Positions 22,323-36,202 of a stretch of 64,000 bases of DNA are shown piece after piece. The position numbers and the translations under genes were made by a program. The DNA is taken from assembly GCF_021531255.1 (NCBI RefSeq), contig NZ_JAFBIO010000001.1, positions 496,001-560,000 of the forward strand. The letters run 5' to 3'. How positions within the stretch are numbered: position 1 is the first letter of the stretch; the number at the start of each line of letters is the position of its first letter. A model generated the notes under the pieces. The model saw nothing but the letters and a program-made list of their open reading frames with translations. It did no database searches and had not been told where the DNA came from. The DNA comes from Allofournierella massiliensis (GTDB lineage: Bacteria; Bacillota; Clostridia; Oscillospirales; Ruminococcaceae).

Positions 22323-23075
22323 TCAGGCCCTTTTCTGCTTTTTATCCAGCCGCATCCTGTCGGCGATCATGGCAATAAACTCGGAGTTGGTGGGTTTGCC
22401 CCGCAGGTTGTGGATGGTGTAACCGAAATAGCTGTTGAGGGTATCCACATCGCCCCGATCCCAGGCCACCTCGATGGCGTGGCGGATGGCCCGCTCCACC
22501 CGGGAGGGGGTGGTGCCGTTCTGCTTGGCAATTTCCGGGTAAAGGCGCTTGGTCACCGCGTTGATGTACTCAGGGTCGTCCATGGTAAGGAGGATGGCAT
22601 TGCGCAGGAACTGATAGCCCTTGATGTGGGCCGGCACCCCGATCTGGTGCAGGATCTCGGTGACGGTGACCTCGTCGCTCTCATCCGGGAATGCCTGGAC
22701 ACGGGCCGGGGAGGCCATTTTTACCACCCGGGCTGCCAGCACCTGATGGTCGAAGGGCTTGACGAAGTAGAAGGCAAAGCCGCTGTCCATCAGTTCCCCT
22801 TCCATCTGCTCGCTCTGGAAGGTGCCCATGACCAGGAATACCGTGCCGCTACCGGCGGCCTCCTCATAGCGCTGCTTGATGGTGATGGCATCCAGCCCGG
22901 GCATGAAGGCATCCAGCAGGGCCACCTGGGGCCGCACCTGCAGCAGGCTTTTCAGGGCCTTTTCGCCCTCCTTCTCACAGACGGTCACCTCCACCCCCTT
23001 CTGCTCCAGAGCCTGACGGCACAGGGATGTGAAGGGCTCGCCGGTCTCGTTCATGACAAATCTGATTTTTTCCAT
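22323..23075 (-). CDS. spo0A: Sporulation master regulator Spo0A with altered receiver
   Basis: This 250-residue protein has a receiver domain (1-125) and the Spo0A C-terminal DNA-binding domain (about 145-250). The C-terminal domain is typical: RVERAIRHAIEVAWDRG for the recognition helix and FGYTIHNLRGKPTNSEF at the end. The phosphoacceptor Asp is present in ALLDAFMPGLD and the Lys in FVKPFD. The acidic pair of the Mg site, Asp-Asp in other Spo0A, is Glu-Thr here (FVMNETGEPF), and the switch Thr/Ser is Gly (VMGTFQ). The start at 23075 has GGAGG 8 nt upstream. A palindrome overlaps its promoter. The identity is secure; how it is activated is open. Confidence 0.92.
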   Translation of the reverse strand: MEKIRFVMNETGEPFTSLCRQALEQKGVEVTVCEKEGEKALKSLLQVRPQVALLDAFMPGLDAITIKQRYEEAAGSGTVFLVMGTFQSEQMEGELMDSGFAFYFVKPFDHQVLAARVVKMASPARVQAFPDESDEVTVTEILHQIGVPAHIKGYQFLRNAILLTMDDPEYINAVTKRLYPEIAKQNGTTPSRVERAIRHAIEVAWDRGDVDTLNSYFGYTIHNLRGKPTNSEFIAMIADRMRLDKKQKRA

Positions 23076-23109
23076 TGTAATATCCTCCAATGTTTGTGTT
23101 TCCCTCAAC

Positions 23110-23137
23110 GTTGGTAATATTACCATATTTTACCAAC
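23110..23137. promoter_or_regulatory. Palindromic operator in spo0A promoter
   Basis: GTTGGTAA and TTACCAAC form an 8-bp inverted repeat with a 12-nt spacer, and inside it GGTAATATTACC (23113-23124) is a perfect 12-bp palindrome. It covers the spacer and -10 (TAATAT) of a TTGCAT-17-TAATAT minus-strand promoter (23117-23145), so a bound protein would block transcription. The binding protein is unknown. Confidence 0.55.
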
Positions 23138-34147: not shown

Positions 34148-34152
34148 CCACA

Positions 34153-34194
34153 AAAAGCGCGCCCCCGGGAGAATGTCCCCAAAGGCGCGCTTTT
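34153..34194 (-). terminator. Terminator of the Spo0A-like operon
   Basis: AAAAGCGCGCC pairs with GGCGCGCTTTT, with a T-run on the minus strand, directly after the kinase-like gene and before the pyrH promoter. Confidence 0.75.
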
Positions 34195-34218
34195 CAAGGT
34201 TTTGCGGATGGCATGGCC

Positions 34219-35028
34219 TTACAGCCGGCCGAAGATCCGCTCCATTTCCCGGCGAAGGCGCAGGCTGCGGCGCTTGTTTTTAAAGGCGTTTTCGTCCGCC
34301 GAGCAGAGCCTGGCCCCCGCAGCCGGGGCGCAGGGCGCCCAGAGGGCGAAGCCGGCGTTTTCCTGCCCTTGGGCCGCTTCCAGCCGCCAGCCCATGGCAC
34401 GGCAGAACTCCCCTGCCAGCACAAGGCCCGCCTTCTGACCGGCAAAGCCCTCGGCCAGGGGCCCTTCCCCCAAAATCGCCCGGCCCGGGCCCTGGCAGGG
34501 CCTGAGATCCCGCAGGCTCAGGGCGGCCTCCTCCCCTTCCAGGGAAAGGCTCAGGCGAAGGGAACCCCGGCCCATGCCCGCCGTTACCAGGGAGCCGATG
34601 AGCCAGACCAGCACCCGCTCGGAAAGGGCCGGGTCACCCCGGACCCAGAGTTCTTCCGGGGCTTTCACCTCCAGGCTCACCCCTTCCCGCCGGGCGTAAG
34701 GGGTGATGACCCCGGCCAGGCTTCGCAGTTGGGCGGCCAGGTCCATCTCGGTAAGGGCCAGCCCTTCCTGCCGGCAGAGGGAAAGATCCCGCATATTGCC
34801 GGCGTACTGGTTGAGCACCACCAGGCTGTCATAGGCGGCGTCCAGCAGCTGCAGGGCCTTGCTGCTCAGGGGTTCGGGCTGTTTTTCCATCACCAGCTTC
34901 AGCAGGCTGATGGCGTTCATGGCGTTATTCAAAGGCGGATACAGGTCCTCGGTGAGCAAGCTGTACAGCTGCGCCTCACTCAGGTTCTGCCCGCTCAGCA
35001 ATTTTTCCAGGGGCGTACGTTCCTCCAT
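34219..35028 (-). CDS. Histidine-kinase-like protein lacking the phospho-His
   Basis: This 269-residue soluble protein has the layout of the kinase core of a sensor histidine kinase. The segment LLTEDLYPPLNNAMNAISLL aligns with the H-box of HisKA domains, but the position of the phosphorylated His is Glu. The C-terminal part, GLVLAGEFCRAMGWRLEAAQ, resembles the G2 box and last helix of an HATPase domain. The N-box (VWLIGSLVTAG) lacks the usual Asn pair and no clear DxG box is seen. No sensor or membrane region is present. The start at 35028 follows GGAG; it overlaps the preceding gene by 53 nt. It probably acts by binding its operon partner rather than as an active kinase. Confidence 0.6.
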   Translation of the reverse strand: MEERTPLEKLLSGQNLSEAQLYSLLTEDLYPPLNNAMNAISLLKLVMEKQPEPLSSKALQLLDAAYDSLVVLNQYAGNMRDLSLCRQEGLALTEMDLAAQLRSLAGVITPYARREGVSLEVKAPEELWVRGDPALSERVLVWLIGSLVTAGMGRGSLRLSLSLEGEEAALSLRDLRPCQGPGRAILGEGPLAEGFAGQKAGLVLAGEFCRAMGWRLEAAQGQENAGFALWAPCAPAAGARLCSADENAFKNKRRSLRLRREMERIFGRL

Positions 35029-35749
35029 TTGTTCTCCATTCTTCCTTTGCGATCTGCATGGCAAGGCGGCGCAGGAACCGGCCGTTGGATACATTGCCCC
35101 GCTCGTCCATATAGGGGCGCATCTTCTCCGGCTGTTCCTGGGCAAGATGCTGCACCGTGCGCCGAATGCCGCTTTCCACCGCGGCTGGCCGCACATTCTC
35201 CTTGCGCCCTACCTCCTGATAAACGGCGCTCACCAGCTTGCAGTCCATCTGATGAAAGAGAAGGACTTCCACCGCCAGCACCAGGTACCGGCCGCCCACA
35301 TCCTCGCTCATCAGCCCGTTGCGGCGAAGATAGGCCCGGATCTGCCCTTCCCCGGGCGTGGGCAGCACCCGTTCCCGGCAGAGCAGCTGGGCTGCCCGGC
35401 GGAAGATCTCCCCCGCGTCGGCGGGCTGGGGCATACAGTAATAGGCCCCGGCGGCATAAAGCTGGCTTTCCAGCCCCGGCCGGAGGGCAGGCAAAAGCAC
35501 CATCACCCGGGGCCTGCGGGGCGCCGGCAGGGCCTTTAAACGTTCCAGCAGACCGAAGGCGTCGGTATCCCGCACCGAAAGGCTGGTGATGAGCATATCA
35601 CAGCTCTGGGCCCCGCGGCTGGCCAGCATCTCCCGCACCGAAGTAAAGCTGCCTCGGATCTCCATGGGCAACCCTTCCATAGCGTTCAGCTGCTGGCGCA
35701 GCAGGCTCAGACGGGAAAGCCGGCCATCCAGCAGGATCAGTTTCCACAT
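34976..35749 (-). CDS. Spo0A-like transcription factor with pseudo-receiver
   Basis: This 257-residue protein has two domains. Residues 1-125 have the receiver fold pattern (WKLILLDGRLSRL, then CDMLITSLSVRDTDAFGLLE), but Ser stands where the phosphoacceptor Asp belongs and the conserved Lys region reads YYCMPQPAD. Residues about 135-240 resemble the Spo0A DNA-binding domain: YLRRNGL, YLVLAVEVLLFHQMD, the recognition-helix segment VRPAAVESGIRRTVQHLAQ, and NGRFLRRLAMQI. The true spo0A of the genome is at 22323. It starts 1 nt after the 105-residue gene. A phosphorylation-independent paralogue of Spo0A is the best reading; the target genes are unknown. Confidence 0.7.
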   Translation of the reverse strand: MWKLILLDGRLSRLSLLRQQLNAMEGLPMEIRGSFTSVREMLASRGAQSCDMLITSLSVRDTDAFGLLERLKALPAPRRPRVMVLLPALRPGLESQLYAAGAYYCMPQPADAGEIFRRAAQLLCRERVLPTPGEGQIRAYLRRNGLMSEDVGGRYLVLAVEVLLFHQMDCKLVSAVYQEVGRKENVRPAAVESGIRRTVQHLAQEQPEKMRPYMDERGNVSNGRFLRRLAMQIAKEEWRTNGGTYAPGKIAERAEPE

Positions 35750-35750
35750 C

Positions 35751-36068
35751 TCAGAGCCCCTTTCCCGGCGGCTCCTGACCCGGCAGGCAGTCCTCGTTCA
35801 TATACAGCTCCAGCGACTGGGTCAGGATCTCTTTCCAGTTGGCCAGCAGCACCGCGTTTTCGTACAGAAACCGCACCAGCTGCGCCGCGCATTCCTCGCC
35901 CAGGCCCCGCAGACAGAGCTCTTCCCTTTCGGCCCGATCGCCGCTGCAGCTCAGCACAAAACGGGTCTGCCCGCCGGGGCCCTTTTCCGCTTCATAACAG
36001 AGCTGGCACGCTTTTTGCAGGGGAAGGATCTCTGAAAAATCGCGTTTGAAGCTGCATATTTTCGACAC
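35751..36068 (-). CDS. Small hypothetical protein, first gene of Spo0A-like operon
   Basis: This is a 105-residue protein with a GTG start and AGGAG 8 nt upstream. It has no membrane segment or signal peptide. It contains five cysteines, including a CxxC in KACQLCYE, and a C-terminal helical part VRFLYENAVLLANWKEILTQSLELY. It recalls short clostridial proteins of unknown function that are found near regulators (possibly the DUF6514 type, low confidence). Its position as the first gene of a three-gene transcript with a Spo0A-like factor and a kinase-like protein suggests a regulatory link. Confidence 0.6.
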   Translation of the reverse strand: MSKICSFKRDFSEILPLQKACQLCYEAEKGPGGQTRFVLSCSGDRAEREELCLRGLGEECAAQLVRFLYENAVLLANWKEILTQSLELYMNEDCLPGQEPPGKGL

Positions 36069-36136: not shown

Positions 36137-36202
36137 CCAGATTCTTCCATTATTTTTCGTCGTCTTTTCGCCGCCGGGCCGTCGCCCGGGCCCCGGCTTC
36201 CT

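Follow-up and report, generated by a model that had tools for sequence, protein, structure and literature searches.

Three genes lie close together on the minus strand of the 64,000-nucleotide stretch of DNA analysed here, the whole of which is called the window, and they encode a small protein, a Spo0A-like regulator (RR) and a protein resembling histidine kinases (HK). The genes and the signals around them are as follows.

36068-35751, minus strand: small protein of 105 amino acids, divergent and apparently related to DUF6514; first gene of the operon, GTG start
35749-34976, minus strand: RR, 257 amino acids, modelled pseudo-receiver plus Spo0A_C; Ser56 at the phosphoacceptor position, recognition helix VESGIRR at residues 191-197
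35028-34219, minus strand: pseudo-histidine kinase, 269 amino acids; Glu27 in place of the phospho-His, both N-box Asn replaced
36136-36108, minus strand: operon promoter; -35 TTGAAA at 36136-36131, 17-nt spacer, -10 TACAAT at 36113-36108
36154-36163, minus strand: predicted operator box 1 (ACGACGAAAA), in the register common to the operon family
36144-36153, minus strand: predicted operator box 2, degenerate in the window's genus
34148-34200, minus strand: probable terminator, a strong hairpin followed by a T run, 3' of the kinase-like gene

The RR gene begins 1 nt past the stop of the small gene, its end is overlapped by the kinase-like gene over 53 nt, and the promoter, of the sigma-70 type, sits 40 nt 5' of the small gene. 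The preliminary description correctly saw three genes transcribed together, a regulator without the phosphoacceptor Asp and a kinase-fold protein with Glu in place of the His. The hairpin 3' of the kinase-like gene (-34.7 kcal/mol, z -6.9, none of 200 shuffles equally stable) is absent from the sites of a simple scan. Downstream of the operon in the window come pyrH and then frr. A single transcript of the operon and pyrH was considered and is unlikely because of this hairpin and a further promoter-like site of its own at 34147-34119. A canonical spo0A gene is found at 22323-23126, 11 kb from the operon.

Profiles for the three proteins were built without the window's genus and run on the 841 window ORFs. 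The small-protein profile (29 relatives) picked out the window protein at 73.3 bits (E 7.2e-22) and the HK profile the kinase-like protein at 127.0 bits, each as the sole match, and the RR profile gave 132.3 bits for RR, with canonical Spo0A as the runner-up at 118.1.

Folds and phosphotransfer residues

RR passes the Pfam Spo0A_C profile (29.5 bits, cut-off 25), so the domain on which the preliminary description depended is present; a relative of the same genus (L004) reaches 21 bits only. The RR receiver stays below the cut-off of Pfam Response_reg (PF00072; 13.9 against 30.2 bits), and RR scores 22.8 bits with the Spo0A equivalog TIGR02875 of NCBIfam, which has a cut-off of 200. The AlphaFold model of RR has a pLDDT of 87.4, and in a fold comparison whose list covers residues 1-127 the best solved match of the receiver was the Spo0A receiver 1qmp (Z 18.2, rmsd 2.5, 125 residues). 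Ser56 aligns with the phosphoacceptor position and Gln108 with the Lys position. From the model, the N-terminal part of RR clearly has a receiver fold without a phosphorylation site and is a pseudo-receiver. The DNA-binding domain had been said to keep its recognition helix, and this stands in part: VESGIRR is partly Spo0A-like, but differs from the canonical VERAIRH.

The kinase-like protein matches no Pfam family even at an E-value of 1, HATPase and HisKA included. Its model (pLDDT 78) has the DHp plus catalytic-domain fold and matches histidine kinase cores, with an E-value of 4.3e-12 for 6rgy (HK853) and, as the fourth best fold match, 8.3e-12 for the Caulobacter pseudokinase DivL (4q20), so that the proposed kinase fold was upheld by structure and not by Pfam. 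Glu27 aligns with the phospho-His position, and the N-box Asn positions are taken by Trp142 and Ser146, which leaves the ATP site broken. HATPase_c does exceed the Pfam cut-off in the relatives L005, L006, L007, L009 and L031 (L065, L062, L059, L060 and L066, respectively, in the count of pairs below), all five of which lack the His. The alignments offer no substitute Asp in RR or His in the kinase-like protein at shifted positions, and the idea that an intact residue might stand elsewhere can be set aside. The earlier view that both partners lost their phosphotransfer residues and kept their folds is thereby sustained, by Ser56 and Gln108 together with the match to 1qmp on one side and by Glu27, Trp142 and Ser146 together with the match to 6rgy on the other.

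The small protein had been described as a cysteine-containing protein, a label that does not survive comparison with its relatives, in which the cysteines are not conserved. The window protein itself matches no Pfam family. Two of the five operon relatives tested exceed the cut-off of 23.9 bits for DUF6514 (PF20124), namely L008 (36 bits) and L029 (30.6), and L005 (12 bits), L006 and L009 fall below it. A profile-profile alignment (hhalign) of the small-protein family with DUF6514 gave a probability of 87% and an E-value of 4.2e-6 for that single comparison, and the conserved stretch of the family reads '..FLYENAV..W.DVL'. On sequence similarity, then, the small protein belongs with DUF6514, a family of no known function.

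Recurrence of the operon and erosion of the active residues

Across the family to which the window's genus belongs, 36 matches above 118 bits to the RR profile were found in 34 of 396 genomes, a lower bound, as weaker true members score less (111 bits in G274, 86-100 bits at named loci). An HK-like gene adjoins all 36 matches, a small-protein match 28 of them, and pyrH lies downstream on the same strand, within the available stretch, in 27. When the window's pyrH was used as bait, an RR/HK pair was seen upstream of pyrH in 24 of 80 named loci, some of which have short upstream sequence; in L111 the pair is about 3 kb from pyrH. The 24 loci comprise 18 from Gemmiger, among them G. formicilis ATCC 27749 (L082), four from Faecalibacterium and one each from Subdoligranulum and an Oscillospiraceae member. 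At two F. prausnitzii loci (L098, L101) and one of Faecalibacterium sp. (L097), the regulator match in the vicinity proved to be canonical Spo0A. The operon is therefore no local oddity; it recurs across the family of Gemmiger and Faecalibacterium, often beside pyrH, and its hosts include human gut commensals such as G. formicilis and Faecalibacterium.

One genome (G046) carries two operons, L053 and L057, each keeping both Asp and His; L057 adjoins pyrH and has a longer kinase, and the contig of L053 stops after the kinase gene. Short proteins of 116 amino acids, consisting of a Spo0A_C-like domain without a receiver, are encoded at L024:1492-1842 and L032:141-491, and more short-frame Spo0A_C matches turned up in the order-wide search.

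Both genes could be read in 58 operons, of which seven have Asp and His, 37 Asp only, five His only and nine neither. The His is thus absent in 46 and the Asp in 14, with 44 keeping the Asp. A published survey gives, in the passages seen, 0.9% for HisKA domains without His and 2.0% for receivers without Asp (PMC12632262), rates against which 46/58 and 14/58 are extreme, for a set of operons that are relatives of each other and were gathered with the window as query. Loci L068-L071, which hold canonical Spo0A, were left out of the operon counts (L070 from the HK set), the duplicates L073, L079 and L096 were left out of the HK and promoter counts, and L071, L098 and L101 were also left out of the RR tree.

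In a quick RR tree the 58 operon rows separate from 21 rows of canonical Spo0A with an SH-aLRT of 100, and the best explanation is that RR is an early paralogue of Spo0A. Unrooted counts give at least four changes of the Asp state on the RR tree and at least three of the His state on the HK tree, seven combined. The intact forms lie nearest to canonical Spo0A in the tree as drawn, the root of which was not inferred, and this fits an intact ancestor. The most likely history is several losses of phosphotransfer in what was an ordinary two-component system. The pseudo state of the window is one end of a gradient at whose other end intact forms exist (7/58).

The retention of the Asp in 44 of the 58 operons makes phosphorylation by another kinase possible in most of the family. 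An alternative reading builds on this: phosphorylation would still matter in most members, another kinase would phosphorylate the Asp-bearing regulators, and the His-less protein with the kinase fold would act as a phosphatase or an ATP-dependent regulator, with the window's genus as an extreme. The 37 operons with Asp and no His speak for it, as do the five His-less relatives in which HATPase_c exceeds the cut-off, but it does not apply to the window, with its Ser56, Gln108 and missing N-box Asn, and the Asp has been lost too in 14 of 58 operons. It is regarded as rather unlikely, though a serious competitor.

The computed selection on the operon bears on a simpler explanation, that the genes are decaying and heading for loss in the window's genus. 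Every catalytic motif examined is lost, and the proteins diverge fast, with 72-80% identity between the two species of the genus against 92% for PyrH. Between the same species, however, dN/dS is 0.255, 0.371 and 0.261 for the three operon genes (0.165 for pyrH and 0.02 for frr), and both species have unbroken frames and the same operon promoter. Within RR the ratio is 0.42 for the receiver, 0.29 for residues 125-232 and 0.16 for the recognition region; the last 25 residues, with 1.07 on few sites, show no constraint. Purifying selection acts on the operon genes of this genus, and decay is very improbable.

Tandem promoter boxes and the recognition helix

Spo0A is the master regulator of sporulation in Bacillus and Clostridia, and its targets carry head-to-tail tandem sites near the -35 hexamer, with 0A boxes, of core TGTCGAA, spaced by 10 bp. 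The promoters of the operon likewise have two head-to-tail 10-bp boxes, which start at -27 and -17 relative to the -35 hexamer. For 46 of 49 promoters, identity at a lag of 10 was 0.530, against 0.18-0.28 (maximum 0.278) at the other lags from 4 to 17, and against a mean of 0.273 and a maximum of 0.339 in 1000 shuffles, which keep composition only and are a weaker control than the other lags. Three promoters (L044, L057, L082) were left out for having less than 50 nt upstream of the best-scoring -35, and eight operons without a small-gene match yielded none. Promoters were selected solely by score, and some selections that are probably wrong (L049, L075, L102 and L107 among them) were kept.

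The letters of the boxes differ by clade. GACGAAAA is found in several genera including the window's, where box 1 is clear and box 2 degenerate, and CGACGG in g58. Most promoters of the Faecalibacterium type have GACGCATT or GACACATT, one g46 and one g31 operon have GGTCG, and many in Gemmiger have CGTAGG or CGTA. Over the 46 promoters, box distance correlated with distance between recognition helices (r 0.512), and the partial Mantel r was 0.397 once the receiver and the remainder of the C domain were taken into account, with 0 of 999 permutations as high, a P-value that flatters the case because relatives within the 26 clade groups, drawn by hand, are not independent and the register and anchor offset were chosen after the sequences had been viewed. 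The remainder of the C domain contributed nothing (-0.037) and the receiver little (0.064), and control DNA just upstream gave -0.002. Box letters thus co-vary with the RR recognition helix and not with the rest of the protein. The tandem operator and this co-variation, both obtained by computation, are what is new here.

The preliminary description had suggested competition with Spo0A for its sites. This idea found no support: TGTCGAA occurs in the boxes of none of the 46 promoters, helix and boxes having drifted together from the 0A box, and the exact tandem box has a single occurrence in each genome of g9 (four of four) and of g58 (four of four), always at the operon. The operon itself is for this reason the clearest target. 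The g9 genome G240 has one extra match with three mismatches, the g9 pattern has no match in G000, and looser matches in g58 are at or under the control level. With up to three mismatches allowed, the six genomes of the Faecalibacterium group fall into several classes: G120, G367 and G274 have the operon site only, G209 has two three-mismatch matches, of which one lies immediately 5' of its own regulator, and G405 has none; the reversed pattern has no match in any of the six. G325 has the operon site and five more (L188, L190-L193), each of which begins 26 nt 5' of a TTGACA, a spacing one base longer than in the operon. L190-L193 run into a repeat-like element with CATGATTTGAATGA units, and the extra sites may possibly represent a dispersed element under the regulator's control.

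A perfect 0A core over the small-gene start (36061-36067) was considered and dropped. TGTCGAA has three matches in the window against 4.2 expected and lies near two of 49 small-gene starts, against 1.9 in shuffles that do not keep dinucleotides; at such chance levels the core is given no weight as evidence.

The boxes may also be read as variant 0A boxes that make the operon a target of canonical Spo0A, with RR acting elsewhere or by protein contact. The head-to-tail arrangement is the one familiar from Spo0A targets, canonical spo0A is present in the same genome, and TGNCGAA is found in the boxes of 8 of the 46 promoters, so that canonical Spo0A could bind boxes of the GACGAAAA type; in the sense direction TGNCGAA occurs in 10 of 49 promoters, against a mean of 3.4 and a maximum of 9 in 300 dinucleotide shuffles. 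The canonical helix SRVERAIRHA, however, is shared by 68 of the 76 genomes read across the order, and being nearly invariant is hardly what clade-variable boxes follow, whereas the boxes (GACGAAAA, CGACGG, GACGCATT, GGTCG, CGTAGG) track the helix of the operon's own regulator. Control by canonical Spo0A is on this evidence improbable.

Canonical sites gave little to compare with: TGTCGAA was upstream of none of 18 spoIIGA genes, tandem TGTCGAA over 18 genomes had nine matches against 23 for the reversed-pattern control, and none of seven surroundings inspected resembled sporulation targets. Because canonical sites were not shown in these genomes, the contrast between RR and canonical Spo0A rests on the helix. 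The canonical protein was taken as the top Spo0A_C match per genome (L001, L011, L015, L022, L030, L248-L318 and window 22323-23126), with 76 of 79 positive genomes read and G070, G098 and G458 left out for cut or short frames. It lacks the phosphoacceptor Asp in 27 of the 76 (Glu in 13, Asn in 11, Ser in two, Gly in one), against the 2.0% published for receivers. The window's canonical Spo0A keeps the Asp and has an odd stretch, VMNETG, where the acidic pocket is expected, and some genomes carry a second Spo0A_C protein. A link of the operon to loss of sporulation found no support: SpoIVA was found in 29 of 30 genomes (one match, in G259, partial) and SpoIIGA in 18 of 18. The operon was read in 28 of the 30, among them the one miss, G285, which is 77% complete. 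With sporulation genes present, a link of the operon to sporulation itself is conceivable.

A proposed mechanism and related systems

The best reading is that of a phosphorylation-independent regulator with a kinase-fold partner, as first suggested from the sequence, because the phosphotransfer residues are lost, the folds kept, the genes selected (dN/dS 0.26-0.37) and intact forms exist. More fully, the operon would be a degenerate two-component module, in which an autoregulator with a diverged operator of its own is accompanied by a non-catalytic partner resembling DivL, a reading to which we give a probability of about 0.6. We infer that RR would bind the pair of head-to-tail boxes that directly precedes the -35 hexamer of the operon promoter, and so set the level of all three operon proteins; the sign of the regulation, guessed from the position of the sites, may be activation. 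Since neither autophosphorylation nor receiver phosphorylation looks possible in the window's genus, the input would have to be protein binding. The kinase-fold protein could be the docking or sensing partner of the pseudo-receiver, much as DivL is for Caulobacter DivK, and the small protein of the DUF6514 type a third component, probably a modulator of an RR-kinase complex. It counts against this reading that no output can be seen for a module with its own promoter as the sole strict site.

A broader proposal, to be held tentatively and with somewhat less than even odds, is that the phosphate step was dropped repeatedly and replaced by protein contact, with regulator and operator co-evolving in each genus as a private, self-addressed code, as part of an order-wide loosening that reaches canonical Spo0A itself (27/76 without Asp).

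With Spo0A, the operon regulator shares the receiver and Spo0A_C domains, a receiver model closest to 1qmp and tandem head-to-tail sites near the -35. It differs in forming a separate clade, in the missing Asp, in its recognition helix and boxes and in sharing an operon with a kinase-fold partner. DivL (PMC4211667, seen in part) also has a histidine kinase fold without the phospho-His and a response regulator as ligand, a role presumed for RR here, whereas the window's kinase-like protein has no PAS domain by Pfam, its partner is a pseudo-receiver with a DNA-binding domain and both genes are in one operon. Atypical response regulators such as CmrT of C. difficile, as presented in the passages seen of PMC12632262, likewise have a receiver fold without a phosphorylation site and an operon with a kinase, but in the operon family the kinase partner is also without its chemistry, lost in parallel and in many species.

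The statement that no system of this form had been described stands for the operon and not for its parts. The literature search, judged by titles and the starts of abstracts and including papers on Spo0A paralogues, found none on such an operon, and the passages seen of PMC6136694 name neither Ruminococcaceae nor Faecalibacterium; pseudo-receivers and pseudo-histidine kinases in their own right are already described in the parts seen of PMC12632262 and PMC4211667. How pseudo-receivers are switched is called a mystery in the former (PMC12632262, in the part seen). Among the new results, the erosion series and the self-addressed operator stand out as the strongest. One family of gut bacteria offers a natural series in the same operon layout, with an intact two-component system at one end and two catalytically dead partners at the other, which makes the switching of pseudo-receivers directly testable, and the letters of the matched operators predict which protein should bind.

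DUF6514 was also considered as a general partner of Spo0A-like pairs and found no support in that role. The term 'DUF6514' was not found in the literature search. Elsewhere in the order, 30 loci were examined of 64 matches listed, and none has matches to the operon RR/HK profiles within about 1.5 kb. A receiver ORF of another kind was seen by eye near the DUF6514 gene of L181. In contrast to the operon, DUF6514 genes elsewhere often adjoin an nrdR-like gene, recognised by eye through its motif, in at least 14 of the 30 loci (L155, L157, L163, L169-L173, L175-L179 and L182), and this neighbour is a possible clue to the function of DUF6514.
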